Source of the DNA: Paludisphaera soli
GTDB taxonomy: Bacteria > Planctomycetota > Planctomycetia > Isosphaerales > Isosphaeraceae
Assembly (NCBI RefSeq): GCF_011064595.1
Contig: NZ_JAALJI010000039.1
Span: forward strand, 1 to 43,840
Direction of reading: 5' to 3'
Length of the DNA stretch: 43,840 nt
Made by a program: the position numbers and the translations under genes. This document shows, one piece after another, positions 6,825-43,668 of this stretch (within the stretch, counting starts at the first letter, position 1; each line of letters starts with the position of its first letter). Under the pieces are notes generated by a model. The model made no database searches. It had not been told where the DNA came from and was given only the letters and a program-made list of their open reading frames with translations.

Positions 6825-7949
6825 TTGTATATTTAAATAATTGACATGTAGTTGTTTGCGAAGCACAAGTTCTCGACTGAAAGTCTGTCGAAACCTGCAA
6901 ACCAATTCGAGCGCGCCGCCGTCGCCAGACGGTTCCGACGCGCCATGCGGACAGTCGGTCGCAACCGGACGATCTCCTTCCGGAGACCGTGCTTTTCCAT
7001 CTCGCTCGGCATACATTGTCGTCGGCAGTCGCCGCGATCCGGCTCGACGTCGGTCGTCGAAGCGGGGAATGGCGTCGGCCTAGATGCCGGGCCCCGGGCG
7101 ATGCGGACGCATCGGCTCGACCATCCGACCGATTCCACCCCCATGTCGCGCCAATCGCGACCGGGCGCCTCCAACCTACGATCTTGCAACGATCATCGAT
7201 CGCAGCATGCGTTCGATGATCCACCCTCCCGAGCGGCTGGGGGCCAAGGGTCGTCTGGGGGGGGGCGATGATGCACGGGTCGATCCAAAAGGCCCTTTCG
7301 ACTTCGTCCCGCCTAGGGGATGCCGGCGTGTACCGGCGGGTCCCGGGACCCGAAAGTCCCTAAATCGCCGACGCGGGATTTGCAAGCCCGATCAACCCGG
7401 CCAAAACCTCGATTCGACGTCCACCGGCGATGCGAGCGAGGGGACGTCCTTACCGCCGGGACCCGCGCGGCGTGATCCGTCCGCCCTCTTACCGGCCCCT
7501 CTCTCCCTCTCCACCTCGGCCTTGGCGGCCGTCCGTCTGCCGCCTCGCCGCCGACCCTTTCCGCCGACCGCGTCGTCGAGGATCACCCCGAACCGATCGG
7601 GGAGGCGGGGGCCTTCGGTCGGCGACGCGGGCCGAGCCGGCGTCGCCGACCAAGCGGTGAACCCGCGCCACGATTTCCTGAAGCTCACGGCGGCCTGAAA
7701 CCCGCCATGGGCGCGGCCGAGGGGTACGCCACCGATGTGAGCGGGTTTTGATTAACGTTGATCGATCGATCGGGTCGTTTGAAACTGGCCCGGCGACACG
7801 GCGCCGGCGCGATTCGACGCCGGGCCGGGGCGGGACCGGCGGATGCGGCGACCGACGCGGCGCGTTGGCATGGGCCGGCGTCTGTGGGACCATGGGATGC
7901 GAGCCGCCGCACTCGATCCGGGCGGCGGCCCCACGACGGGAGAGGCCCC
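6825..7949. other. Long stretch without a convincing gene
   Basis: About 1.1 kb with frames open only because of high GC; translations are arginine/proline-rich and show no motif. The first 20 bases are AT-rich. Two minus-strand pieces between 7560 and 7700 (ELQEIVARVHRLVGDAG in one frame and DRFGVILDDAVGGKG in another) look weakly coding and could be remnants of a frameshifted gene. The only other structure I see is the ACGT-centred motif at 7750. Confidence 0.4.
7750..7764 (+). promoter_or_regulatory. ACGT-centred near-palindrome, copy A
   Basis: GATTAACGTTGATCG, a near-palindrome around AACGTT, about 185 bases upstream of the gene at 7951. It resembles the motifs at 12813, 20562 and 32206 with the two half-sites exchanged. 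The adjacent sequence repeats ATCG. Function unknown; a regulator site is the simplest guess. Confidence 0.35.
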
Positions 7950-7950
7950 C

Positions 7951-8811
7951 ATGTCCCTGGAGCTGATCCACCCCGAGAGCCCCCGCCTCGCCGTCGACTG
8001 GCGGTGGCGGCTGGCGTCGTCGCTGCGAGGGGCGGCCGCCGCGACGGGCCGCGGATGGGCCGACCCCTGGGTGGATCGGGCCGTCGCGCGCCAGGACGCG
8101 CAGGAGGTCGCCGATAGCGATTGCCGAGCGATCGGCGCGGACGAGTCGCTCGCCCGGGCCCTCCGCCTCCGCGACGGCGGGAACCGGCGGCGCTGGGAGG
8201 TCGAGGCCCGGCTGCTGGCCGCCGAGGGCGACGACGCGATCGCGAGGAAGTGCTGTATGCCCGCCGGGGCGGTCGCCGCCTTCGCGGCCGTCTTCTTCGA
8301 CGTCCGGCCCCGGCTCGACCGCGCGGGCTACATCCAGCACCAGGCGATCAACCCGCCCGTCGACGCGTCGGAGCCGCCGGCCGGCCGCGCCTGGAGGGCG
8401 CTGGGCTACGGGGGCGGGCCGCTCGTCGTCGACTTCCTGGCCGCCGCGGGCGAGGCCGAGTTCGCGGCCGACGGCTCGTTCGCGGTCGGTCCGGCGGCCC
8501 CCAGGGGCCGCGACGCGCGGCTGCGTCGCCTCGTCGCGGCCTCCCTGGCGCTCGACCTCGACGCGGCCGCCGCCCTCCGCATGCTCCCCCTGATCGCCTC
8601 GCTGGACGAATCCGGCTTCGGATCGGCGCCTGCGACCGGCCTCGCCCCGACGCTCGCGGGCCTCGACCTCGCGGCCGTGCTTTCGTCGGACGAGGGCTGC
8701 GAAGGTGCCCGGGGCGGACCCGGATCTCCCGCGAGGCGTCCGGGTGGAGGCTTGGTGCGAGAATGCCATGAGGGCGGGGAGCCGGCCCCGCTGCGACGCT
8801 TCGGGTCGTGA
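7951..8811 (+). CDS. Helical hypothetical protein of a planctomycete family
   Basis: The protein has 286 residues. The ATG at 7951 is preceded by GGGAGAGG with good spacing; the frame is open further upstream without start signals. The core contains RRRWEVEARLLAAEGDDAIARKCC followed by MPAGAVAAFAAVFFDVRPRL and DRAGYIQHQAI. This has the look of an HTH-like helical pair and matches, from memory, a hypothetical family common in planctomycete genomes near phage-like genes. A second helical half (ALGYGGGPLVVDFLAAAGEAEF) follows. The last 40 residues are glycine/arginine-rich and may come from a late frameshift. No enzymatic motif is visible. It belongs with the mobile-element genes to the left by family association, which is inference. 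Confidence 0.6.
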   Translation: MSLELIHPESPRLAVDWRWRLASSLRGAAAATGRGWADPWVDRAVARQDAQEVADSDCRAIGADESLARALRLRDGGNRRRWEVEARLLAAEGDDAIARKCCMPAGAVAAFAAVFFDVRPRLDRAGYIQHQAINPPVDASEPPAGRAWRALGYGGGPLVVDFLAAAGEAEFAADGSFAVGPAAPRGRDARLRRLVAASLALDLDAAAALRMLPLIASLDESGFGSAPATGLAPTLAGLDLAAVLSSDEGCEGARGGPGSPARRPGGGLVRECHEGGEPAPLRRFGS

Positions 8812-28101: not shown

Positions 28102-30897
28102 ATGTCATTCGGCGAGGACCGCACGCCAGACGGGCCCGGGAGGCGGGCCGATTCCGGCCGAATCGAAGGAACGGCCCCTGGGTTGGGAGATCCAGGGGCC
28201 GGCGGCGCGACCCGCGTTTTGCTAGTCGACGACCTGCCCAAGAACCTGCTCGCCCTGGAGGCCGTCCTGGGCGGCATGGGGCTGGACCTGGCGCGGGCCG
28301 GATCGGGCGAGGAGGCCCTGCGTCAGGTCCTGGACGGGGATTTCGCCGTCATCCTGATGGACGTCCAGATGCCCGGCATGGATGGTTTCGAGGCGGCCGA
28401 GCTGATCCGCCGACGCGACCGCTCCAGCCACACGCCGATCATCTTCCTGACGGCCTTCCAGAACACCGAGGGGCAGGCCTTCCAGGGATACGCCCTCGGG
28501 GCGGTCGACTTCCTCTCGAAGCCGATCGTGCCGGCGGTGCTGCGATCCAAGGTGGCCGTGTTCGTCGAGCTGCACCAGAAGACCGACCAGGTCAGGCGTC
28601 AGGCGGCCGAGCTGGTCGAGAACCAGCGTCGGGAGCACGACCGCGCGTTGGCCGAGGAACGGGGCCGCTGGGAGGTCGAGAGGCTCCGGGCGGAGGCGGC
28701 CCGAGAGCGGGAGGCGGCCGGGGCGTTGGCGCGCACGGTCTCCGAACTCACGCGGGCCGAGACGGACCTCCGCGCCCGGGCCGCCCAGCAGGCGATCGTC
28801 TCCGAATTGGGCCACCAGGCCCTGGCGGGCGCGGGCCCGGCCGGCCTGATGAACGAGGCGGTCGCCCAGGTGGCGGGGATATTCGGAGTTCGGTACGCCT
28901 ACGTCGCGGAGGCCGCCCCCGGGCGGGATTTCCAGATCGTGAGGGCCGGCTTCGGCTGGGCGGCGGGGAATGCGGAACGGGCCGTCCTCGGCGCCGGTGC
29001 GGGGTCGATCGCGGGATTCACCCTTCTGACGGGGGAACCGGTGGTCGCCGAGGACCTTCAGGCCGAGAGCCGCTTCGCCCCGTCGCCGCTCCTCCGCGAC
29101 CACGGCGTCGCGGCCGGCTTGTGCGTCCCCATCCAGGGGCGAGAAGGGCCGTACGGCACTTTGGGCGTGTTCAGCGACGGCGCGAGGACCTTCGCCCGGG
29201 ACGACGTCCACTTCCTGCAATCCGTCGCCAACGTGCTGGCGGCGGCCGTCCAACGCCGACGCGACGAGGACGAGCTGGCGGCGGTCCGCGACGAGCTGGC
29301 GGCCCAGTTGGCCGACATGATGCGGCTGCACGCCCTGGTGGCCCGCCTGTCCACCAGCCTGGAGTTGACGTCCGTCCTGGAGGAGGTCCTGTCCGCGGTC
29401 TTGGCGCTCCGCGGATCCGAGCGGGGCGTCCTGACGCTCAGGGACGCCGACCGGGACGCCGCGGCGACGGCGGTCAGCATGGGCTTCACGGCCGAGGGGC
29501 TTGACGACGGCCTCACCGCTCCGGCGGCCGGCGCGGCGAACTCACCTCCGTGCGCCGCACCCCACCGGCCGGCCGAGCGGCCCGAGGGCGACGTCGACGC
29601 GGTCCTCACGCCGCTGCTGACCAGCGGCGGCGTGCATGTGGGTAGCATCGCCGCCTACTTCTCATCGCCCCACCGTCCCACCGGGCGCGAGACCCGCCTC
29701 GTCGAGCTCTACGCCCGCCAGGCGGGCGACGCGATCGACAACGCCCGACTCTACCGGGCCATTCGCGACGACGACCGGCGAAAGGGGGAGTTCCTCGCCA
29801 TGTTGGCGCACGAGCTTCGCAACCCGCTCTCGCCTTTGCTGCACGCGCTGCAAATGCTCGGGCCGGGTGCCGGCCCCCTCCGGGACGTCGCGGAGCGTCA
29901 GGCTCGGCATCTGGTGCGTCTGGTCGACGACCTGCTGGACGTCTCGCGGATCAGCACGGGCAAGATCGAGCTGCGTCGAGGGGTCGTCGACCTGCGCGAG
30001 GCCGTCGCCCACGCCGCCGAGACCGCGCGGCCGCTGATCGAATCCCGTCGGCACGAGCTGACGATCACGCTGCCCGAGGAGCCGATCCCCCTGGAGGCGG
30101 ACGCGGCCCGGTTGGAACAGATCCTGGTCAACCTGTTGAACAACGCCGCCAAGTACACCGAGCCGGGGGGCCTGATCGCGGTCGAGGCGCGACGCGAGGG
30201 GGAGGACGCGGTGGTCCGGGTGCAGGACTCGGGCGTCGGCATCGAGCCGGAGCTCCTGCCGCGGATCTTCGACCTGTTCACGCAGGCGGGGCGCTCCTTG
30301 GACCGCAGCCAGGGGGGGCTGGGCGTCGGCCTGACGCTGGTCCGGCGCCTGGTGCAGCTCCATGGCGGCGAAGTCTCCGCCGGCAGCCCCGGCGTCGGCC
30401 GGGGCAGCGAGTTCGTCGTCCGCCTGCCCATCCGGGCGTTCCGAGAGGGGGGCTCGACGCAGGACGAGGGATCGCCGCCCTCCGGCCCCGGCGGGCGGGG
30501 CGCCGCCGGGCCGAAGTTCGTGCTGATCGTGGACGACAACGCCGACGCCGCGCTGACCCTGGCCCGGCTCCTTGAGTCGAGCGGCCACCGCGTCGAGGCG
30601 GCCCACGACGGGCCGGCCGCCCTGGAGCGGGCGGGCTCCCGGCCGCCGGACGTGGTGTTGCTGGACATCGGGCTGCCGGGCATGGACGGCTACGAGGTGG
30701 CCAGGCGGCTTCGGGCTTCGGGCCTGGACCGGGCGATGATCGTCGCGTTGACCGGATACGGCCAGGAGGAGGACCGACGTCGATCCCGCGAGGCGGGGAT
30801 GGACGCCCACCTCACGAAGCCCGTCGACCTGCAGACGCTCAACGAGCTTTTCTCCCTCCATCGACCGCCTGTCCGACGTGCTGCGACGCCGGAGTGA
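28102..30897 (+). CDS. Hybrid histidine kinase, REC-GAF-GAF-HisKA-HATPase-REC
   Basis: The protein has 931 residues; GGAGGG at 28089-28094 sets the ATG at 28102. The first receiver (residues 35-155) has LLVDD and D87 in LMDVQMPGMDG. A coiled coil (QKTDQVRRQAAELVENQRRE) leads to a first GAF domain (about 230-390) and a second GAF-like domain (about 410-550). H570 in MLAHELRNPL is the phosphorylation site; NLLNNAAKY and GGLGVGLTLV mark the ATPase. The terminal receiver has VDDN and D855. There is no membrane segment, so it is cytoplasmic. An N-terminal receiver means it can be driven by another kinase, plausibly the HAMP-array kinase just upstream. The last residues of the protein are at 30897, followed by the decayed repeated-family copy. 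Confidence 0.92.
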   Translation: MSFGEDRTPDGPGRRADSGRIEGTAPGLGDPGAGGATRVLLVDDLPKNLLALEAVLGGMGLDLARAGSGEEALRQVLDGDFAVILMDVQMPGMDGFEAAELIRRRDRSSHTPIIFLTAFQNTEGQAFQGYALGAVDFLSKPIVPAVLRSKVAVFVELHQKTDQVRRQAAELVENQRREHDRALAEERGRWEVERLRAEAAREREAAGALARTVSELTRAETDLRARAAQQAIVSELGHQALAGAGPAGLMNEAVAQVAGIFGVRYAYVAEAAPGRDFQIVRAGFGWAAGNAERAVLGAGAGSIAGFTLLTGEPVVAEDLQAESRFAPSPLLRDHGVAAGLCVPIQGREGPYGTLGVFSDGARTFARDDVHFLQSVANVLAAAVQRRRDEDELAAVRDELAAQLADMMRLHALVARLSTSLELTSVLEEVLSAVLALRGSERGVLTLRDADRDAAATAVSMGFTAEGLDDGLTAPAAGAANSPPCAAPHRPAERPEGDVDAVLTPLLTSGGVHVGSIAAYFSSPHRPTGRETRLVELYARQAGDAIDNARLYRAIRDDDRRKGEFLAMLAHELRNPLSPLLHALQMLGPGAGPLRDVAERQARHLVRLVDDLLDVSRISTGKIELRRGVVDLREAVAHAAETARPLIESRRHELTITLPEEPIPLEADAARLEQILVNLLNNAAKYTEPGGLIAVEARREGEDAVVRVQDSGVGIEPELLPRIFDLFTQAGRSLDRSQGGLGVGLTLVRRLVQLHGGEVSAGSPGVGRGSEFVVRLPIRAFREGGSTQDEGSPPSGPGGRGAAGPKFVLIVDDNADAALTLARLLESSGHRVEAAHDGPAALERAGSRPPDVVLLDIGLPGMDGYEVARRLRASGLDRAMIVALTGYGQEEDRRRSREAGMDAHLTKPVDLQTLNELFSLHRPPVRRAATPE

Positions 30898-34784: not shown

Positions 34785-35651
34785 ATGAGCGACAACGGGA
34801 AGGGACTCTCCGAAGTCCTCTCGAAACACGAGGCCGACCTCCAGGCCGACTGGATCAAGGAGCAGACGGCCGGCTCGGCGCGGAGGACCGGCGCGATCAA
34901 GGAGGTCGAGCTTCGGGATCAGTGCAAGGAGTTCCTCGGGCTGGTCATCGAGGCCCTCCAAGGCGGTGGCGACCTCGACGTCCGAGGGCCCCGATGGAAC
35001 CCGGTGCGCGATCTGCTCGCGAACCTCTCCCGCTCGCGGGGGCTCCAGGGGTTCACCCCGTCGGAGACCGCGTCCTTCGTGTTCTCCCTCAAGAAGCCGC
35101 TGTTCGCCCGCATCCGGCGGGACCTCTCCAAGGACGGCGAGGCCATGGCCGAGGCCACCCTGGCGGCCACCGTGCTGCTCGACGGCCTCGGGCTGTACAC
35201 GACCGAGGTCCACCAGAAGGCCCGCGAGGAGATCATCGCGCGGCAGCAGCAGGAGATGCTCGAACTGTCCACCCCGGTCGTGACGCTCTGGGAGGGGATC
35301 CTGGCCCTCCCCATGATCGGCACTCTCGACAGCGCCCGGACCCAGGTCGTCATGGAGTCCCTCCTGCAGAAGATCGTCGACACGGCGTCGAGCATCGCCA
35401 TCATCGACATCACCGGGGTCCCGACCGTCGACACTCTCACCGCCCAGCACCTCCTCAAGACGGTGACCGCCGCCCGGTTGATGGGCGCCGAGTGCATCAT
35501 CAGCGGCATCCGCCCGCAGATCGCGCAGACCATAGTCCACCTGGGCGTGGACCTGGGCGACGTCACGACCAAGGCCTCGCTGGCCGACGCGCTAGCCGTC
35601 GCCCTGGAACGGACCGGGCGGGCCGTCCGCCGCGTCCGGGCCGGTTCCTGA
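34785..35651 (+). CDS. rsbR: RsbR-type stressosome co-antagonist (RsbRD-like N-domain + STAS)
   Basis: The protein has 288 residues. AGGAG at 34770-34774 sets the ATG at 34785 against a longer open frame. Residues 1-160 form the helical RsbRD-type sensor domain (EADLQADWIKEQ ... SETASFVFSLKKPLFARIRR). Residues 170-280 are a STAS domain very close to RsbR (LSTPVVTLWEGILALPMIG; ISGIRPQIAQTIVHLGVDL). T217 (PTVDT) and T249 (AQTIV) sit about where RsbT phosphorylates RsbR proteins. RsbR and RsbS build the stressosome core, and the variable N-domain receives the signal. This is the first gene of a six-gene operon; RsbS starts 14 bases after its stop. Confidence 0.92.
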   Translation: MSDNGKGLSEVLSKHEADLQADWIKEQTAGSARRTGAIKEVELRDQCKEFLGLVIEALQGGGDLDVRGPRWNPVRDLLANLSRSRGLQGFTPSETASFVFSLKKPLFARIRRDLSKDGEAMAEATLAATVLLDGLGLYTTEVHQKAREEIIARQQQEMLELSTPVVTLWEGILALPMIGTLDSARTQVVMESLLQKIVDTASSIAIIDITGVPTVDTLTAQHLLKTVTAARLMGAECIISGIRPQIAQTIVHLGVDLGDVTTKASLADALAVALERTGRAVRRVRAGS

Positions 35652-35665
35652 AGGAGTCCGTCCCG

Positions 35666-36061
35666 ATGGAACGCATCCCGATCCTCAGGATGGGCGGATT
35701 CCTCCTGGTCACGATCCAGGTCGACATGCACGACCGCCTCGTGACGACTCTGCAGGACGAGCTCACGACCATGATCGCCCAGACGGGGGCCCACGGGGTC
35801 CTGATCGACATCTCGTCGCTCGACATGGTCGATTCCTTCATCGGCCGGATGATCGGCGACATCGCGGGGATGTCGCGCGTGCTCGACGCCGAGACGGTCG
35901 TGGTCGGCATGCGACCCGCCGTCGCCATCACCCTGGTGGAGCTCGGGCTCTCGCTCGCCGGCGTTCGCACGGCGCTCGACGTCGAGAAGGGCATGGGCCT
36001 CCTCCGGGCCGCGACGCGGCGGCGGCTCGCGGAGGCCGACGATGGTGGTGTCGAAAGATGA
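35666..36061 (+). CDS. rsbS: RsbS stressosome antagonist (STAS-only)
   Basis: The protein has 131 residues; AAGGAG at 35651-35656 sits on the rsbR stop. It is a single STAS domain with the very conserved IDISSLDMVDSFIGRMIG, in which S57 corresponds to the RsbT-phosphorylated serine of RsbS. DAETVVVGMRPAVAITLVEL and ALDVEKGMGLL follow, as in canonical RsbS. Unphosphorylated RsbS in the stressosome holds RsbT; phosphorylation frees it. The last 20 bases overlap the start of rsbT. Confidence 0.95.
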   Translation: MERIPILRMGGFLLVTIQVDMHDRLVTTLQDELTTMIAQTGAHGVLIDISSLDMVDSFIGRMIGDIAGMSRVLDAETVVVGMRPAVAITLVELGLSLAGVRTALDVEKGMGLLRAATRRRLAEADDGGVER

Positions 36062-36446
36062 GATCATGGAGATCCGGGCGTCGGATCACGTGGTGCTGGT
36101 GCGTCAAGCGGTGCGGAAGTGGTCGACCGAGCTCGGCTTCGGGCTGGTCGACCAGACCAAGATAATCACGGCCGCCAGCGAGTTGGCGCGGAACACGCTT
36201 GACTACGGCGGCGGGGGGACCGTCCGCCTGGAGGCGGTCGAGTCGGGGGGCAGACGCGGCTTGAGGCTGATCTTCGAGGACCAGGGGCCCGGCATCGTCG
36301 ACCTGGAGAAGGCCCTGACGGACGGATACACCACCGGCAAGGGGATGGGGATGGGCCTGAGCGGATCCAAACGGCTGGTCAACGAATTCGACATCGTCTC
36401 GCGAGTCGGCGAGGGGACCCGCGTCACCATCACGAGGTGGAAGTGA
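36042..36446 (+). CDS. rsbT: RsbT switch protein kinase (GHKL ATPase)
   Basis: The protein has 134 residues. The chosen ATG at 36042 overlaps rsbS by 20 bases and has GGAGG upstream; an ATG at 36066 is the alternative. The GHKL fold is shown by SELARNTLDYGGGG (N-box), EDQGPGIVDLEKALTDGYTT (G1) and GKGMGMGLSGSKRL (G2), all typical of RsbT. In characterised systems it phosphorylates RsbR and RsbS and, once released, activates a downstream phosphatase (RsbU). No RsbU is visible here; the PP2C enzyme of the next gene is more like RsbX fused to a second ATPase. It is translationally linked on both sides. Confidence 0.95.
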   Translation: MVVSKDEIMEIRASDHVVLVRQAVRKWSTELGFGLVDQTKIITAASELARNTLDYGGGGTVRLEAVESGGRRGLRLIFEDQGPGIVDLEKALTDGYTTGKGMGMGLSGSKRLVNEFDIVSRVGEGTRVTITRWK

Positions 36447-37486
36447 TCACGACGGCGGGCCGGCCGTTCGCGCTGGCGATCGACGACGCCAGCATGGTCG
36501 GCGAGGCCAGGCGGGCGGCGACCGCGCTGGCGGGGAGCCTCGGCTTCGGCGAGACCGGGCGCGGCCGGGTGGCCATCGTGGCGACGGAGGCGGCGACGAA
36601 CCTGTCGAAGCACGCGACGGGCGGCGAGATCCTCATCCAGGGGATCGAGGCCGGGGAGTTCGGCGGGGTGGAGATCCTGGCCCTGGATCGAGGGCCCGGC
36701 ATGGCGGACGTCGATCGCTGCATGTCGGACGGATATTCGACCGCCGGCTCGCCCGGGACGGGGCTGGGGGCCATGTCCCGCCTCTCGGGGACTTTCGACG
36801 TCCACTCGCTGCCCGAGCTCGGCACGGCCGCGTTGTCGCGACTCTGGGCGGGGGCCTCCCCCGGGGCCTCGTCGTTCGCGGGGCTGGAATTCGGGGCCGT
36901 CAGCGTCCCCCTGGCGGGCGAGGAGGTCTGCGGCGATTGCTGGGCGATCGACGGCGACGAGGGCCGGGCCCTCGTGCTGGTGGTGGATGGGCTGGGCCAC
37001 GGCCCGCAGGCCGCGGAAGCCGCGCGCAAGGCCGTCGGGAGCTTCGCGGAGGCGGCGGCCCGGCTCGAACCGGCGGAAGTCCTCAAGGCGGCCCACGCGG
37101 CCCTCGGCGGCACGCGCGGGGCCGCGCTCGCCGTCGCGCGGATCGACCGCGAGCGGGGGGAGGTCCGGTTCGCCGGGGTGGGAAACATCTCGGGCGTCAT
37201 CTACGGCTCCGTCGACGAGGCCGGGAGGACGAGCATGGTGTCCCACAACGGCACCGTGGGGCACACGGTCCGCAAGATCCAGGAGTTCGTCTACCCCTGG
37301 ACCCCCGGCTCGACGCTGATCATGCACTCGGACGGCGTGGCCACCCAGTGGCGCCTAGACCGTTACGCGGGCCTGTCCGCGAAGCACCCCGGCCTGATCG
37401 CCGGGACGCTCCACCGGGATTTTCGGCGGCCCCGGGACGACGCGACCGTCGTGGTAGCCCGGGATTGCGGGCCGGGCCGCCCATGA
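36437..37486 (+). CDS. RsbT/RsbW-like GHKL ATPase fused to a PP2C (RsbX/SpoIIE-like) phosphatase
   Basis: The protein has 349 residues and starts at GTG 36437, overlapping rsbT by ten bases. Residues 1-140 form an anti-sigma-type ATPase: ATEAATNLSKHATGGE (N-box), DRGPGMADVDRCMSDGYST (G1), GSPGTGLGAMSRL (G2). Residues 150-345 form a PP2C-type phosphatase with all metal ligands: D167 in CGDCW, D184 in VVDGLGHG, D299 in HSDGV and the DDATVVV pair (334-335). The RsbX role, removing phosphate from RsbR/RsbS to reset the stressosome, is the most natural. Fusion of the two enzymes, as far as I recall, occurs in other stressosome-linked modules. The stop overlaps the next start as ATGA. Confidence 0.88.
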   Translation: MEVITTAGRPFALAIDDASMVGEARRAATALAGSLGFGETGRGRVAIVATEAATNLSKHATGGEILIQGIEAGEFGGVEILALDRGPGMADVDRCMSDGYSTAGSPGTGLGAMSRLSGTFDVHSLPELGTAALSRLWAGASPGASSFAGLEFGAVSVPLAGEEVCGDCWAIDGDEGRALVLVVDGLGHGPQAAEAARKAVGSFAEAAARLEPAEVLKAAHAALGGTRGAALAVARIDRERGEVRFAGVGNISGVIYGSVDEAGRTSMVSHNGTVGHTVRKIQEFVYPWTPGSTLIMHSDGVATQWRLDRYAGLSAKHPGLIAGTLHRDFRRPRDDATVVVARDCGPGRP

Positions 37487-39639
37487 GCCTCCCCCTGCTG
37501 ACCGTGGAGATCCGCCTGGAGCCCGACGTCGTGTCGGCCCGCCAGAGGGCCCGCCAGATCGCGGGGCTGCTGGGCTACCCCCCGCTCGACCAGACGCGAA
37601 TCGCCACGGCCGTCTCCGAGATCGCCCGCAACGCCTTCCAGTATGCGGGCGGCGGCACGGTCGAGTTCCGGGTCGAGACGGGGGCTTCGCCGGGGATGCT
37701 GATCCGGGTCAGGGAGCGGGGCCCGGGCATCCGGGACCTGCAGGCCATCCTCGACGGCCGCTACGACTCGCCGACGGGTCTCGGGGTCGGCATCCTGGGG
37801 GCCAAGCGGTTGATGGACCGGTTCGAGATCGAGTCGACCGACCGCGGCGCCGCCGTCACGATGATCAAGGATTCGCCGCGCGGGAGGGCCCCGTGGGGCC
37901 AGGCCGAAATGGCTCGGGTCTCGGCCGAGTTGGCCCGGAACGCCCCCCTCGGGCTGCAGGAAGAACTCCTGATCCAGAACCAGGAGTTGCTCCGCACCTT
38001 GCAGGAGCTCCGGGAGCGGCAGGCCGAGCTCGCCGAGCTGCACGCCCGCGAGCTGGAGGAGACCAATCGCGGCGTGGTGGCCCTCTACTCCGAGCTCGAC
38101 GAGAACGCGAAGGACCTGCGCCGGATCTCGGAGCTCAAGTCCCGGTTCCTGTCCAACATGAGCCACGAGTTCCGATCGCCGCTCAACACGATCCTGAGCA
38201 TGTCGGGGTTCCTGCTCGACGGCAGCAGCGGCCGGCTGACGGCCGAGCAGGAGACGGAGGTCGGCTTCATCCGCAAGGCGGCGGAATCCCTGACGGCCCT
38301 CGTCAACGACCTGCTGGACCTCGCGAAAGTCGAGGCGGGTAAGGCCGTCGTCCGGGTCGAGACGTTCGACGTCGCCGACCTGTTCGAGACCCTGCGGGGG
38401 ACGACCAGGCCGCTGCTCGCCCCCGGGGTCGTGTTGCTGATCGTCGATGAGGCCGCCGGCCTCCCGCCGCTCCGCACCGACGAGGGGAAGGTCGCACAGA
38501 TCCTCAGGAACTTCCTCTCGAACGCGGCGAAGTTCACCGAGCGCGGGGAGATCCGCCTGGGCGCGAAGGTCGGCCCCGGGGGCACCGTCGTCTTCACGGT
38601 CTCCGACACGGGGATCGGGATCGCCCCGGCGGACCAGCGGCGGGTCTTCGAGGAATTCAACCAGGTCGATGGGCCGGTCCAGAAGCGGGTCAAGGGGACC
38701 GGGCTGGGCCTGCCTCTGTCGCGCAAGCTCGCCGAGCTGCTGGGCGGCGGCGTCTCCGTGCGGAGCGACCCGGGGGCCGGCTCGACGTTCTTCGCCGTCA
38801 TCCCGCGATCCTACAAAGAGCCGGACGAGGGCGACGTCAAGCACGAAGACACATGGCGGACGGCCCCGCCCCGCCGGCCCGTCCTCGTCGTCGAGGACGA
38901 CCCCGTCGACCTGCTGCTGTACGAGAACCACCTCCGGGGCTCCGGCTTCCAGGTCCTCCCGGCGCGGAGCCTCGACGAGGCTCGTCGGGTCCTCGATCGG
39001 GTCCGCCCGGTCGCCGTGCTGCTCGACGTCGTCTTGGATGCGGGAAGCGGGTGGAGCTTGCTCGCCGAGATGAAAGGGTCGGAGGCCAACAGGGAAGTCC
39101 CCATCTTCGTCGTGTCCGTCCTCGACGGGAGGGAACGCGCGATGGGGCTCGGGGCCGCCGATTTCCACCTCAAGCCCATCGGCCGCGATTGGCTCCTGGG
39201 CCGCCTGGAGGCGTTGGGGGCGGCCCGGCCTCTCGACACCATCCTGATCATCGACGACGAAGAGGCGGACCGGTACGCGTTGAAGGGGCTCTTGAACGCC
39301 CAGGGGAGGTTTGCGATCGTCGAGGCGCCCAGCGGCGAGGAAGGCCTCCGGCGGGCCCGGGCCGAGCGGCCCGACGCGATCTTCCTCGACCTGTTCATGC
39401 CGGACATGACCGGTTTCGAGGTCCTGGAGCGACTGAAGTCCGACGAGGGGACGAGGGACATCCCCGTCGTCCTGAACACCTCGGGCGTCCTCGACGACCG
39501 AGATCTCGGCCGTCTCGCGCCAAAGACCGCGATGATCCTCTCCAAGTCCGCGGGGACGGCGGAAGAGGCGTCGGCGACGATCCGGGAGGCCCTGGCCAAC
39601 GCCGGCTTGAACCTGGACCCCGCGGGCCCGGAGGGGTGA
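37483..39639 (+). CDS. RsbT/RsbW-like ATPase fused to a hybrid histidine kinase with two receivers
   Basis: The protein has 718 residues and starts in an ATGA overlap. Residues 1-130 are an RsbT/RsbW-type ATPase (SEIARNAFQYAGGG; RERGPGIRDLQAILDGRYDS; GLGVGILGAKRL), plainly related to the two preceding proteins. A coiled coil (140-215) leads to the kinase: H228 in SNMSHEFRSPLN, then NFLSNAAKF, DTGIGIAP and GTGLGLPLS. Receiver 1 has D515 and VEDD; receiver 2 has D636 (FLDLFMPDM) and IIDDEE. Receiver 1 has a divergent DVVLDAGSGW in place of the usual PxMDG loop. The N-domain may bind RsbR/RsbS or an anti-sigma partner and so gate the histidine kinase. This is inference from its position in the stressosome operon. 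Confidence 0.9.
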   Translation: MSLPLLTVEIRLEPDVVSARQRARQIAGLLGYPPLDQTRIATAVSEIARNAFQYAGGGTVEFRVETGASPGMLIRVRERGPGIRDLQAILDGRYDSPTGLGVGILGAKRLMDRFEIESTDRGAAVTMIKDSPRGRAPWGQAEMARVSAELARNAPLGLQEELLIQNQELLRTLQELRERQAELAELHARELEETNRGVVALYSELDENAKDLRRISELKSRFLSNMSHEFRSPLNTILSMSGFLLDGSSGRLTAEQETEVGFIRKAAESLTALVNDLLDLAKVEAGKAVVRVETFDVADLFETLRGTTRPLLAPGVVLLIVDEAAGLPPLRTDEGKVAQILRNFLSNAAKFTERGEIRLGAKVGPGGTVVFTVSDTGIGIAPADQRRVFEEFNQVDGPVQKRVKGTGLGLPLSRKLAELLGGGVSVRSDPGAGSTFFAVIPRSYKEPDEGDVKHEDTWRTAPPRRPVLVVEDDPVDLLLYENHLRGSGFQVLPARSLDEARRVLDRVRPVAVLLDVVLDAGSGWSLLAEMKGSEANREVPIFVVSVLDGRERAMGLGAADFHLKPIGRDWLLGRLEALGAARPLDTILIIDDEEADRYALKGLLNAQGRFAIVEAPSGEEGLRRARAERPDAIFLDLFMPDMTGFEVLERLKSDEGTRDIPVVLNTSGVLDDRDLGRLAPKTAMILSKSAGTAEEASATIREALANAGLNLDPAGPEG

Positions 39640-39640
39640 C

Positions 39641-41593
39641 ATGGCCGCTCAACCGCCCGAAACCATCCTGGTCGTCGACGACGACGCGGCGAAACGGCAC
39701 GCGGTGACGAAGATCCTCCGCAGGGCAGGGTACGCCATCCGCGAGGCCGAGACCGGCACCGACGCCCTCCGCCTCGTCGCCGAGAGGCCGTCCTTGATCG
39801 TCCTCGACGTCAAGCTGCCGGACCTGAGCGGGTTCGAGGTCTGCCGCCGGATCAAGGAGGACCCCGCCACCGCCATGATCCCCGTCCTCCACCTCTCGAC
39901 GACTTTCGTCGACATCGAGGATCGCATCTACGGCCTGGAGGGCGGGGCCGACGGCTACCTGACCGACGTCCTGGAGCCGCTCGAACTGGTGGCGACGGTG
40001 AGGGCCTTGCTGCGCACCAGGAGGGCCGAGGAAGCCGCCCACATCTCGTCCAAGCAATGGCAGGCGACCTTCGACTCGGTCAGCGACGGCGTCCTCTTGC
40101 TGGACCGGAGCGGCAAGGCCGTCCAGTGCAACGCGGCGATGGAGGGCATCCTGGGCAGGCCCTGGAACGCCCTGGCTGGAGATTCGATCCACGACCTGCT
40201 GTCCATCTCCCCCGCCGCACATCGGTCGCCCTTCCTGCGGATGCTCGACAGCGGCCGCCGCGAGGAGGTCGAGCTGACGCTGGGCGACCGATGGCTGCGC
40301 GTCACCATCGACCCCATCCGCGACGCGGCCGGGGTCGTCAAGGGGGGCCTCTGCATCGCCTCCGACGTGACCGACCGCAGGTCCATGGAGGAGGAGCTGA
40401 GGCGGCGGGCCGACGAGTTGGTGGCGGCCGACAGGCGCAAGGACGAGTTCCTGGCGATGCTGGCCCACGAACTTCGCAACCCCCTCGCCCCTATCTCCAA
40501 CGCGCTCCAGATGATCCGAATGCTGCGGGGCAAGCAGCCGGAGTCGGAAGAGGCGCTGGACATCGCGGCGCGTCAGGTCAAGCACATGTCCCGCCTGCTG
40601 GACGACCTGCTCGACGTCGCGCGATTCACGCGGGGCAACGTCCAGCTGAGCAAGGTCCCGGTGGAGCTGGCCTCGGTGCTGGCGCAGGCCGTGGAGACCG
40701 CACGCCCCCTGATCGAAGGCGGCGGCCACCAGTTCGCCACATCGTTCCCGCCCGAGCCCGTCTGGCTCGTGGGCGATCCGACCCGGCTGGCCCAGGTCGT
40801 TGCGAACCTGCTGAACAACGCCGCCAAGTATACCGACCCGGGCGGGCGGATCGCCCTCACAGCCGCACGCGAGGGGGGCGAGGCGGTGATCCGCGTGCGG
40901 GACGACGGCGTCGGACTGGACGCCCCGATGCTCGCGAGGGTCTTCGACCTCTTCGCCCAGGAAGACCGCTCGCTCGCACGTTCCCAGGGGGGCCTTGGCA
41001 TCGGATTGACGCTCGTCCGCAGCTTGGTCCAGCTGCACGGGGGGACCGTCGGCGCCGAGAGCCGCGGGCTCGGCCAGGGCAGCGAGTTCATCGTACGCCT
41101 GCCCGCGGACTCGCACGTCGAGCCGACGCCCGAGCGAGAGGTCGAGCCCCTCGGGGTCGAACTGCGGCGGCGGCTGCGGCTCCTCGTCGTGGACGACAGC
41201 GTCGATTCGGCGCGGAGCCTCGCCCAATGTCTGAAGCTCTGGGGGTACGACGAGGTTAGCGTCGCCCACGACGGCCCGTCGGCGGTCGCGGTCGCGACAT
41301 CCCAGCCGTTCGACGTGATTTTCCTCGACATCGGCCTCCCGGGGATGGACGGCTATCAGGTCGCCGAGCGGGTCCGAGATCAATTCGGTTCGGCCGGCCC
41401 CGTTCTGATCGCCCTGACGGGATACGGCCAGGCCGAGGACTCGGCACGCTCGCGGGACGTCGGATTCGACGAACACCTCACCAAGCCGGTGGATTTGGAT
41501 CGACTCCGCACGATGCTCGGGGATCCATCTTTTCAGCGAGGGAGGGGTGGTCGTCGAGATTCCACCGGGGGGGTGGCCGGCGAGTCCCGATGA
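39641..41593 (+). CDS. Hybrid histidine kinase, REC-PAS-HisKA-HATPase-REC
   Basis: The protein has 650 residues and starts one base after the preceding stop, with GGAGGGG upstream. The N-terminal receiver (about 8-125) has VVDDD and D56 (VLDVKLPD). A PAS domain spans about 140-250 (FDSVSDGVLLLDRSG, then IRDAAGVVKGGLCIASDVTD). H276 in MLAHELRNPL, NLLNNAAKYTDPGG and GGLGIGLTLV mark the kinase core. The terminal receiver has VVDDS and D563 (LDIGLPGMDG). There are no membrane segments. The N-terminal receiver could be phosphorylated by the kinase encoded just upstream, giving a relay. It is the last gene of the stressosome operon. Confidence 0.92.
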   Translation: MAAQPPETILVVDDDAAKRHAVTKILRRAGYAIREAETGTDALRLVAERPSLIVLDVKLPDLSGFEVCRRIKEDPATAMIPVLHLSTTFVDIEDRIYGLEGGADGYLTDVLEPLELVATVRALLRTRRAEEAAHISSKQWQATFDSVSDGVLLLDRSGKAVQCNAAMEGILGRPWNALAGDSIHDLLSISPAAHRSPFLRMLDSGRREEVELTLGDRWLRVTIDPIRDAAGVVKGGLCIASDVTDRRSMEEELRRRADELVAADRRKDEFLAMLAHELRNPLAPISNALQMIRMLRGKQPESEEALDIAARQVKHMSRLLDDLLDVARFTRGNVQLSKVPVELASVLAQAVETARPLIEGGGHQFATSFPPEPVWLVGDPTRLAQVVANLLNNAAKYTDPGGRIALTAAREGGEAVIRVRDDGVGLDAPMLARVFDLFAQEDRSLARSQGGLGIGLTLVRSLVQLHGGTVGAESRGLGQGSEFIVRLPADSHVEPTPEREVEPLGVELRRRLRLLVVDDSVDSARSLAQCLKLWGYDEVSVAHDGPSAVAVATSQPFDVIFLDIGLPGMDGYQVAERVRDQFGSAGPVLIALTGYGQAEDSARSRDVGFDEHLTKPVDLDRLRTMLGDPSFQRGRGGRRDSTGGVAGESR

Positions 41594-41728: not shown

Positions 41729-41879
41729 TCGAGTCGACCTTTACCCCCTGCCGTTTAGCCGTGTTTCCATTTCACCGGCGCCAACCGCAGATTCATGTGC
41801 CGCCGCCGACGAAAAGTCCGGCGGCCGGCCCCGTCGGCGGCGCGATGGTCCGCACGCCGCGCGAGCGACCGCCTCGCGG

Positions 41880-42850
41880 ACCCGCTCGACGTCGAGGCCG
41901 GGATCGGCGAGCGGCGAGGCCCGATCCTGGCCGAGCTCAGCCACGAGCTGCGCACGCCGCCGGGCTCCATACTCGGCTGGGCCAAGATCCTGCGGTCCGG
42001 CCGCGTGAGCGAGGATCACGTGCGGGAAGGCCTGGCGGTGATCGAGCGCAATGCGGCCGCCCAAGTGCAGATCATTAAGGATCTGCTCGACATCTCTCGG
42101 ATCGTCTCGGCCAACTTCCGCCTGGAGGTAGCGGGTCAAGGCCCAGGACGTCGTCGAGGCGGCGGTCGTTCGGCCACGCCGGCGGCCATGGCCAAGGGGG
42201 GCCACCAAAAGATGATCGACTCGCTGGCCGGCACGTATCCGACCGCTTCCGCCAGGCCGACTCGGGCACGACGCGGCGCCACGGCGGACTTGGGCTGGGC
42301 CTCGCGATTGTGAAGCAGCTGGTCGAGCTGCACGGCGGCTCGGTGCGGGCCAAGAGCCCGGACGAGGGCTGTGGCTCGACCTTCATCGTGACCCTGCCTT
42401 TAGCGGTCGTCGACTCGGAGCAGCCGGCGGCCGACTCGCGACCGAAACCGAGGAGCGAGGCCGACCAAGTCTGCAAGGACCACCTGCTCGAAGGTGCCCG
42501 GGTTCTGATCCTGGACGACGAGCCGGACGCACGGCAGCTGATCCAGAGCGTGCTCACGGACTGCGAGGCCGAGGTCGCGCAGGCCGCTTCGGGCGCGAAG
42601 CCCTCCAACTCGTCGAGTCGTTCCGCCCCGACGAGATCGTCAGCGGCGTTGGGATGCCCGAGCAGGACGGCTACGACTTCATCCGCCAGGTGCGGGCTAA
42701 ACGGTCGTTCAGGGAGCTGCCGGCGGCGGCACCCACGGCCTTCGCCAGGGCGGAGGACCGCAGGCAGGCGCTCTTCGCCGGCTTCCGGCCAAGCCGGTCG
42801 AGTCGGAGGAGCTGGTGGCCGTGATGGCCAGCCTGGCCGGCAGGACCTAG
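41880..42850 (+). pseudogene. Decayed hybrid histidine kinase (HisKA, partial HATPase, REC)
   Basis: The histidine box ILAELSHELRTPPGSILGWA and DLLDISRIVS are intact near 41930-42110, but upstream sensor sequence is missing. After about 42130 the frame shifts and most of the ATPase domain (N- and G1-boxes) is deleted. The G2-box resumes in another frame at about 42240 (DRFRQADSGTTRRHGG, then GLGLAIVKQLVELHGG). A receiver follows (RVLILDDEPDARQLIQSV), shifts frame near 42597 and continues as ALQLVESFRPDEIVSGVGMP, where the phosphorylated Asp is replaced. A last shift near 42790 brings AKPVESEELVAVMASLAGRT and a TAG at 42848-42850. At least three frame changes and one large deletion make a functional kinase impossible. 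Confidence 0.8.
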
Positions 42851-42877
42851 AGGGCGTGAGGCCGTTCGGTCGCCCGA

Positions 42878-43246
42878 TCACTCGACGCGGAACTCGCCAC
42901 TCCCATACCGGGCCAGCAGATCGAGGACGTCCGCCGGCTTGATGACGACGTCCGTCGCACCGGCCTCCCGAGCAAGGCGTTCGACGTCTTGCCTGGAGTC
43001 GGCCGTCACCATGACCTTCGGCACCCTGTCGAGCCCCTGCATGGAACCGAGCCGACGGATGAGTTCGATGCCGTCCATCTGGGGCATCATGAAGTCGGTC
43101 AGCACGAGCTCGGGCGTGAAGCCCTCCAGCCGACTTAGGGCGTCGGTCCCGGACGGGGACGCGAGCACCTCGCAGCCGGCGTACTGGAGGAGCCAGGCGG
43201 ACGATTCGCGCAGGTCGTCCATGTCCTCGACGAGAAGTACTCGCAT
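42878..43246 (-). CDS. Stand-alone response regulator receiver protein
   Basis: The protein has 122 residues, a single receiver domain without output. The acidic pocket is E7/D8, the phosphorylated Asp is D51 (LVLTDFMMPQMDG), and T81 and K103 (VIKPAD) complete the active site, so it should be phosphorylated normally. The ATG at 43246 fits the family length; no ribosome binding site precedes it, and a hairpin lies seven bases upstream. It is convergent with the decayed kinase. It may be a shuttle or a partner of the nearby hybrid kinases, in the manner of CheY/DivK-like proteins. Confidence 0.88.
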   Translation of the reverse strand: MRVLLVEDMDDLRESSAWLLQYAGCEVLASPSGTDALSRLEGFTPELVLTDFMMPQMDGIELIRRLGSMQGLDRVPKVMVTADSRQDVERLAREAGATDVVIKPADVLDLLARYGSGEFRVE

Positions 43247-43253
43247 GGCGATA

Positions 43254-43362
43254 ACGGTGCCGGACGGGCCTGGCACCGTCCTCCCTGTTCGTTGTCGCTG
43301 CGTCTTCGGCTGCGGCCTTCGATAAGGCAACTGACGGGCCACTCCTGCCTCGTCAGGACGAG
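43254..43362 (-). promoter_or_regulatory. Leader of the receiver gene with a start-proximal hairpin and an upstream palindrome
   Basis: ACGGTGCC (43254-43261) and GGCACCGT (43272-43279) are perfect inverses with a ten-base loop, placed where a ribosome binding site should be for the ATG at 43246. Further upstream CTCGTCAGGACGAG (43349-43362) is a 14-base near-perfect palindrome. The first could control translation, the second could be an operator. Both are inferred from sequence only. Confidence 0.4.
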
Positions 43363-43668
43363 TCGCTCCGATTTGCCTTTGGTGCACTTAGGGTAAAACC
43401 ATTACACCCCCTGCATCCCGTCCCTCCGAATGATGCTCCCATGCATCGCGAGCAGGCCCAAGACACCATCTATCCCTTTCCCATGCCACCCCGCCCTCAA
43501 CCTTTCATCGGAAAACTGAAAGCAGAGCCACGCCGCTCCAGCAGAAAAGCGGCTCCCTCTGAAGTTTGCCCCCCACTCTTCAGCCTGCACGGCGGAGCAC
43601 CAGCGGCTCCGGTCCGCTCTCCTGCAAGGCCTGAAAGGCGGGCTGGAAACAGAGAAGGGGGAGACGGC
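43363..43668. other. Lower-GC gap with short hairpins
   Basis: The composition is visibly less GC-rich than the rest of the window. Short inverted repeats are present (GCCGCT with AGCGGC near 43532-43553, and GGAGC with GCTCC near 43600). A plus frame from 43441 runs into the gene at 43669 but does not look coding before that start. This may mark the left end of another inserted segment. Confidence 0.35.

Follow-up and report, generated by a model that had tools for sequence, protein, structure and literature searches.

The RsbRST-RsbU-RsbV-RsbW-SigB system of Bacillus subtilis combines a STAS scaffold bearing phosphorylation sites with the RsbT kinase and an RsbX-type phosphatase. In this organism, released RsbT activates RsbU via its N-terminal domain, ordering a coiled-coil linker (PMC12143880), and in Listeria, phosphorylation of RsbS at S56 has been proposed to free RsbT (PMC12154155, a preprint; statements on all papers cited here extend to the parts of each that were drawn on). 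Other outputs have also been described. Modules of the rsbRSTX type, with a single-domain RsbX, are followed by eleven types of downstream proteins, including HisKA/REC relays and, in some cases, RsbU_N (PMC9237108), and the binding of RsbT to the downstream kinase could not be shown in the Vibrio work (PMC9237108). Here, we describe an operon of six genes from the planctomycete Paludisphaera soli (family Isosphaeraceae), in which a hybrid histidine kinase starts with an RsbT-like domain. The window, i.e., the whole stretch of DNA analyzed, comprises 43,840 nucleotides (positions 1 to 43,840 of contig NZ_JAALJI010000039.1, assembly GCF_011064595.1), and the host genome has a size of 7.97 Mb.

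A stressosome operon with two kinase genes

The operon occupies positions 34785-41593 on the + strand and consists of rsbR, rsbS, rsbT, an ATPase-PP2C gene (X), an ATPase-hybrid-kinase gene (HK1), and a REC-PAS-kinase-REC gene (HK2). The N-terminal RsbT-like domain of HK1 is referred to below as the head. The features are as follows:

34785-35651, + strand: RsbR, RsbRD_N sensor plus STAS domain, putative phosphorylation sites T217 and T249 (Pfam PF14361, 1.6e-27; PF01740, 7.3e-14)
35666-36061, + strand: RsbS, STAS-only scaffold protein, putative phosphorylation site S57 (PF01740, 1.6e-7)
36042 (or GTG 36048)-36446, + strand: RsbT, predicted switch kinase (PF02518/PF13581)
36443-37486, + strand: X, ATPase domain at ~36494-36808 and RsbX-type PP2C domain at ~36956-37462 (PF13581, PF07228)
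37483-39639, + strand: HK1, RsbT-like head, coiled-coil linker, HisKA, HATPase_c, REC, and REC (PF13581, 1.8e-16; PF00512; PF02518; PF00072, twice)
37483-37878, + strand: RsbT-like head of HK1, residues 1-132, with E78 in place of the G1-box Asp (fold, tree, and residues)
37954-38124, + strand: predicted signaling coiled coil of HK1, residues 158-214, motif ETNRGVVALYSELD (AlphaFold2 helix; invariant residues)
39641-41593, + strand: HK2, REC, PAS, HisKA, HATPase_c, and REC (Pfam)

The spacings along the operon are +14, −20 (−14 with the GTG start of rsbT), −4, −4, and +1 bases. A preliminary description of this DNA had reported overlaps or gaps of 14 bases or less and had assigned domains to the six proteins; the coordinates of all six genes bear out the former, and the Pfam calls match the latter, with the N-terminal ATPase domains of X and HK1 both assigned to HATPase_c_2 and the PP2C domain of X to SpoIIE. 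Its remark that stressosome clusters beside two-component genes are already known is likewise correct, given the HisKA/REC relays reported after rsbRSTX (PMC9237108). Among the matches listed, the nearest named ones are Aquisphaera, Singulisphaera, and Isosphaeraceae records.

The first four genes have the makeup of a stressosome module. RsbR, with its N-terminal sensor and STAS domain, adjoins the STAS-only RsbS, and their relatives in the PDB include RsbR and RsbS chains. S57 of RsbS is kept in 71 of 73 aligned rows, and T217 and T249 of RsbR are each kept in 71 of 71; judging from sequence context, these residues are the probable equivalents of the known B. subtilis phosphorylation sites. 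RsbT, for which the nearest solved structures by profile are those of SpoIIAB, has a complete ATP site (E45, N49, D78, G80, G82, G101, and G103, numbered from GTG 36048), with D78 present in all 78 RsbT rows. An RsbX-type PP2C directly follows rsbT, as in RSTX modules: the top two profile matches of X are 3zt9 (2e-27) and RsbX 3w40 (3.8e-19), and the acidic residues D165, D182, D297, D332, and D333 are invariant across 13 family sequences. Unlike the single-domain RsbX of those modules, X also carries an ATPase domain at its N terminus.

The arrangement resembles the Vibrio vulnificus-type RSTX module, in which rsbR-rsbS-rsbT-rsbX are located close before two-component genes and whose Vibrio locus contains neither RsbU nor a sigma gene (PMC9237108). 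In contrast to the window, however, these modules have a single-domain RsbX, most of their downstream proteins are without RsbU_N, and the parts of the paper drawn on mention an RsbT-like domain neither on the kinase nor on RsbX (PMC9237108). A Vibrio plasmid locus (L157) encodes a PAS-HK-REC-REC-Hpt protein that has no RsbT-like head. The STAS scaffold with its phosphorylation sites, the RsbT kinase, and the RsbX-type phosphatase are shared with B. subtilis; there, RsbT works in trans on RsbU_N, whereas in the window an RsbT-like domain lies within the effector and the genome yielded no RsbU_N match. Stressosome-linked histidine kinases with RsbU_N have a kinase output with a coiled-coil linker in common with HK1 but carry the receptor of RsbT, while HK1 carries an RsbT-like domain (PMC12143880, PMC9237108). 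In the stressosome of Moorella thermoacetica, a modular output replaces RsbU, as it does here, but this output (RsbU_N-GGDEF) is a diguanylate cyclase reached via RsbU_N (PMC12143880). Among the matches listed, our literature search, whose coverage did not include the 2005 survey by Pane-Farre, Lewis, and Stulke, returned no description of a kinase joined to an RsbT-like domain. We are moderately confident that the RsbT-effector fusion is the new part, the phosphorelay output itself having been published already (PMC9237108).

The RsbT-like head of HK1

A FastTree phylogeny covered 248 ATPase domains over 133 columns, without SpoIIAB, and used the HK1 and HK2 catalytic domains as the outgroup. 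The HK1 heads form one group with the operon RsbT proteins, Lysinibacillus RsbT, and one archaeal RsbT (support 0.907; 0.95 with the addition of one archaeal X ATPase), within which the heads make up a single clade of 85 sequences (support 0.944). Almost all X ATPases are set apart (support 0.874), and a single long-branched RsbW falls among them. Eight loci whose best RsbT match is the HK1 head itself, and six loci in the case of the X ATPase, were left out of the tree and of the residue counts given below; the counts also leave out the sequence Halob_H, which is without an RsbT-like head, and the 85 heads do not include the degenerate heads of loci L043 and L044, Streptomyces, Nonomuraea, and Embleya.

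The predicted fold is consistent with the tree. An AlphaFold2 model of the head, built from 40 aligned sequences, has a mean predicted local distance difference test (pLDDT) score of 87.9, and VIA-align placed SpoIIAB at the top (Z 15.9, root mean square deviation 2.3, 131 aligned), followed by RsbW (Z 14.0) and then by UsfX, Rv1364c, the response regulator LvrC (11.3), and SiaB (10.2). Foldseek likewise returned SpoIIAB and RsbW at the top; no solved RsbT turned up in the structure searches with the head model. Both tree and fold thus identify the start of HK1 as an RsbT-like domain. An alternative, in which the head is an N-terminal duplicate of a regular histidine-kinase catalytic domain, was rejected, since the first chain with a histidine-kinase title scored a Z of just 8.8 vs 15.9 for SpoIIAB.

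Residues R20, T49, and E104 of SpoIIAB have been named essential for its contact with SpoIIAA (PMC4166321). In a profile alignment, R20 and T49 correspond to R19 and R48 of RsbT and to R20 and R49 of HK1. At the R20 position, Arg is found in 85/85 heads, 78/78 RsbT, and 78/80 X ATPases, and at the T49 position in 85/85 heads, 78/78 RsbT, and just 6/80 X ATPases. According to these counts, the head resembles RsbT and not X at the T49 position, while the R20 position is common to all three. Putative binding of the head to RsbS/RsbR has support at the level of residues.

We also compared the nucleotide-binding sites. The ATP-site Asp is present in all RsbT (78/78) and X (80/80) sequences and in 75 of the 85 heads; the 10 Asp-less heads are that of the window, those of eight further Isosphaeraceae members, and one from a cyanobacterial metagenome-assembled genome. 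With E78 in place of the G1-box Asp, the window head does not have the complete set of N, G1, and G2 boxes that characterizes the RsbT family and is therefore perhaps not a working ATPase. The preliminary description had proposed a partner-switching ATPase fused to a histidine kinase: the fusion is real and the domain is RsbT-like, but the term ATPase may not apply. In the family alignment, 12 of 13 heads (the window and 11 of the 12 others) have lost the Asp, so that the head there looks like a docking pseudo-kinase, and L145, a planctomycete of the same class, also has a degraded ATP site in its head. In most of the window's family, then, the head reads as a docking domain rather than as an active kinase. 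ATP-site loss as a general trait of heads was rejected, given that the Asp is mostly kept in other phyla and in family member G011.

Behind the head, a single predicted helix (residues 158-245) runs into HisKA in an AlphaFold2 model of 450 residues of HK1 (mean pLDDT 83.7, predicted template modeling score 0.49, with confidence dropping to 67-69 near residues 191-230). Residues G197, V198, A200, L201, Y202, and E204 of the coiled coil are invariant in 81 rows, and the H-box residue H228 is invariant in a 31-row alignment. The remainder of the protein has the composition of a hybrid histidine kinase, i.e., HisKA with an H-box, HATPase_c, and REC with a phospho-acceptor Asp.

Distribution of the cassette and exchange of its output

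Within the family, residues 1-215 of HK1 were matched at an E-value of 1e-5 or better in 14 of 45 genomes (own genome included), 13 of these matches being close and one weak (G044). All six genes are in order on 10 of the 12 other family contigs with a close match, and the remaining 2 are cut by contig ends. Head-fused kinases were also found at L043 (3071-4477, − strand) and L044 (2043-3647, − strand), both with degenerate heads; the genome of L043 also holds the full operon.

A scan of named genome contigs returned at least 591 matching stretches, at least 466 of which are relatives, and the best 80 were examined with family-built profiles. As the 80 loci were picked by likeness to HK1, they show what accompanies this kinase and not its frequency among stressosomes; eight of them match contigs of the family set. 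Collinear R-S-T-X-HK1 is present in 68 of 80 loci, of which 57 also have a sixth open reading frame (ORF) starting with REC and 11 do not. Scored by this REC start alone, a sixth gene follows HK1 in 66 loci (42 encode REC-kinase-REC, and the others are shorter, cut, or different). HK1 itself has two REC domains in 41 loci, one in 19, and none in 19, with the head alone in 1. Eight of the 12 loci without the collinear set start too near a contig end for their gene order to be judged (L049, L068, L085, L088, L095, L119, L121, and L124). In L097, HK1 lies ahead of R-S-T-X, and L077 has R-S-T close by in divergent orientation; no R-S-T was detected in L059 or in L083, a locus that shows fragments. 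The preliminary description had offered absence of the gene order from relatives as grounds for abandoning its proposal; with 10 of 12 family contigs and 68 of 80 named loci retaining it, that proposal was not refuted on this ground, and a local accident as the origin of the gene order was rejected.

By the taxonomy in the record titles, the 80 loci span about nine phylum-level groups: Cyanobacteria (25), Proteobacteria (20), Acidobacteria (14), Planctomycetota (11), Rokubacteria (2), Anaeromyxobacter (2), "Deltaproteobacteria" (2), Gemmatimonadota (2), Nitrospira (1), and Verrucomicrobia (1). R-S-T-X-HK1 is carried by annotated plasmids of Deinococcus radiodurans R1 (MP1), Sphingomonas aliaeris, and Phaeobacter inhibens (in strain DSM 17395 without the sixth gene), and a plasmid of Paraburkholderia aromaticivorans has S-T-X-HK1 with no R detected; HK1 is annotated on these plasmids as "ATP-binding protein" or "sensor histidine kinase." The cassette is thereby present in strains used in the laboratory, D. 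radiodurans R1 and P. inhibens DSM 17395. On a haloarchaeal plasmid (L129), R-S-T-X, with an ATPase domain in X, precedes a PAS kinase without a head (7417-8610, + strand), which has a comparable coiled coil, TETNEGMVALTLELE, at its start. Distance correlations among the six protein parts ranged from 0.55 to 0.77 for all pairs, with no pair standing out.

A survey of 392 genomes of the phylum Planctomycetota found an RsbS match at 1e-20 in 12 (own genome included), giving 12 regions to examine. Two of these have R-S-T-X-HK1 and a sixth gene starting with REC (L145 and L146, the sixth gene of L146 seeming either short or split), and one is cut (L147). In four regions, the ATPase-PP2C protein occurs with no HK1 head in the stretch examined (L148, L149, L155, and L156), and in the other five, no ATPase is joined to RsbX (L150-L154). 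When ten downstream proteins from the survey loci and the Vibrio locus were scanned, RsbU_N was detected in one (L153) and sigma-54 activators in two (L150 and L151); the latter directly follow RsbX and represent another possible stressosome output.

In actinobacteria, the output behind the head has been exchanged. The fifth gene of Streptomyces goshikiensis (L130) and Streptomyces microflavus (L162) encodes a degenerate RsbT-like head, a coiled coil, and PP2C (SpoIIE); the coiled coils, TNAGVMAMYAEL and TNAGVMALYAEL, resemble that of HK1. Pfam detects the PP2C domain alone in this fusion and a family-built profile detects the head, and tblastn with the first 216 residues of the Streptomyces protein matches the Deinococcus HK1 heads at 3e-9. 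Nonomuraea (L159) and Embleya (L163) have a degenerate head on a kinase-REC protein, followed by a REC-PP2C gene. This gene order is like RsbK-RsbY of Bacillus cereus, where a hybrid kinase with an S-helix acts on a REC-PP2C protein, but the input of RsbK is CHASE3-HAMP-GAF, and the domains listed for it include none that is RsbT-like (PMC4574943). Since a REC-PP2C gene follows the head-kinase gene in Nonomuraea and Embleya, HK2 is likely the recipient of phosphate from HK1 in the window.

Next, we considered whether a sigma factor may lie at the end of the route. The window's contig has no STAS domain besides RsbR and RsbS and no Sigma70_r2 match, and its only HATPase_c_2 matches over the cut-off are the operon's three; RsbU_N, the classical RsbT receptor, was not found in the whole genome. 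RsbU_N was likewise undetected in 27 of 29 genomes carrying the HK1 head (own genome included), while the B. subtilis positive control was detected; two cyanobacterial genomes (G439 and G440) have one match each, one of them above the cut-off. The absence of RsbU, RsbV, RsbW, and a sigma factor from the gene set, noted previously, is thus borne out for the contig and, as regards RsbU_N, for the genome, but not beyond: the genome has 66 Sigma70_r2 places as well as further STAS and HATPase_c_2 proteins outside the contig, so that a route from the operon to a distant sigma factor is possible. Similarly, the proposal of phosphorelay in place of sigma release fits the widespread kinase with an RsbT-like head and the lack of detected RsbU_N but is not general, as a similar head sits on PP2C in Streptomyces, SigF is nearby in one of the two Streptomyces records (in S. 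microflavus, ~1.8 kb onward on the opposite strand), and REC-PP2C comes next in Embleya and Nonomuraea.

No widely shared gene was found after HK2, the largest group of alike downstream ORFs having five members. Beside the operon in the window, there is probably a decayed hybrid kinase (41795-42942, + strand), with HisKA in a short ORF and, by eye, kinase- and REC-like pieces in adjoining frames. A stand-alone REC protein (42878-43387, − strand; PF00072, 5.3e-21) is a possible phosphate recipient, and a HATPase_c_2 match below the cut-off (30094-30357, + strand), within a very long open frame, is probably the catalytic domain of another kinase.

A candidate signaling route and its alternatives

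On balance, we somewhat favor the reading that the operon encodes a stressosome with HK1 as its output kinase, in which HK1 contains its own RsbT in cis and the RsbR/RsbS scaffold gates it. RsbR and RsbS would build the STAS scaffold, with RsbT as its serine/threonine kinase, and X would dephosphorylate and thereby reset the scaffold, on which it may be held by its own ATPase domain. The HK1 head would dock on unphosphorylated RsbS/RsbR in competition with RsbT; upon stress, RsbT would phosphorylate RsbR and RsbS, and the head would be freed or repositioned. The coiled coil behind the head would then change and the autokinase of the HK1 dimer would be switched, with the active state being either scaffold-bound or free. 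Phosphate would next move to the REC domains within HK1 and on to HK2. In this way, the two roles of RsbT in Bacillus would be divided: RsbT would remain the kinase, and the messenger role would be built into the effector, so that no RsbU_N receptor would be needed.

A broader reading is more tentative, and we regard it as plausible without favoring it: RsbT fused to an effector that the scaffold holds and releases may represent a second widespread stressosome wiring. The head would be a docking module that can lose its kinase chemistry and be transferred from one output to another, with a histidine kinase behind it in most of the phyla observed and PP2C in Streptomyces, and free RsbT would be kept as the scaffold's own kinase only.

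Several observations weigh against the favored reading. Arg at the R20 position, being present in nearly all X ATPases as well, is not by itself specific for RsbT-type binding, and the third SpoIIAB contact, E104, has no counterpart, as it sits in an insertion that is absent from RsbT in the profile alignment. The branching order of RsbT, heads, and Bacillus-type RsbT in the tree has a support of just 0.068. None of the five other genomes of the same genus (G028-G032) carries the head, which makes its distribution patchy, by gain or loss, and four of the planctomycete regions have the ATPase-PP2C protein without it. The kinases at L043 and L044 are solitary, with no stressosome gene found on their short contigs. 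Finally, 70 of 81 heads have all seven ATP-site motif residues, most heads from other phyla keep the Asp, and G011 (L042) and the more distant planctomycete L146 retain it, so that a kinase role is possible there.

The intact sites, the Asp kept by one family member, and the serine kinases SpoIIAB and RsbW as nearest folds would suit a head that is an active serine/threonine kinase, i.e., a second RsbT phosphorylating RsbR/RsbS or another STAS protein and making HK1 a dual kinase with catalytic output. We nevertheless consider this unlikely, as the window head and 11 of the 12 other family heads have lost the Asp, while free RsbT, by contrast, keeps it in every sequence; moreover, in Streptomyces, Nonomuraea, and Embleya, the nucleotide site is degenerate while the fusion and the coiled coil are kept. 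It is less probable still that the head is a sensor of nucleotide or of some other small ligand and drives the kinase alone, with the stressosome genes merely co-transcribed. The head-fused kinases on the two short contigs would be in line with such a role, but R-S-T-X-HK1 stays together in 68 of 80 loci, L097 and L077 keep R-S-T nearby in another arrangement, and the loss of the nucleotide site in two lineages speaks against ATP sensing as a general role.

SpoIIAB and RsbW form dimers, and the head could pair in the same manner with free RsbT or the X ATPase as a GHKL heterodimer rather than with STAS proteins, in which case RsbT release would still be the signal and HK1 would read it as RsbU does. 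Although released RsbT does activate RsbU via the N-terminal domain and linker (PMC12143880), the head resembles RsbT and not RsbU_N, and its conserved positions correspond to the STAS-facing contacts of SpoIIAB, which leaves this pairing the least probable of the alternatives.

For signal relay by stressosomes outside Firmicutes, a conserved RsbT-like head on a kinase adds a concrete candidate contact point. The conserved cassette suggests, if the scaffold does gate HK1, that the stress sensor is wired directly to a phosphorelay. This would clearly exemplify a diffusible messenger that was turned into a fused docking domain and then lost its enzyme site, and it would give a role to a set of proteins that are now named merely "ATP-binding protein."

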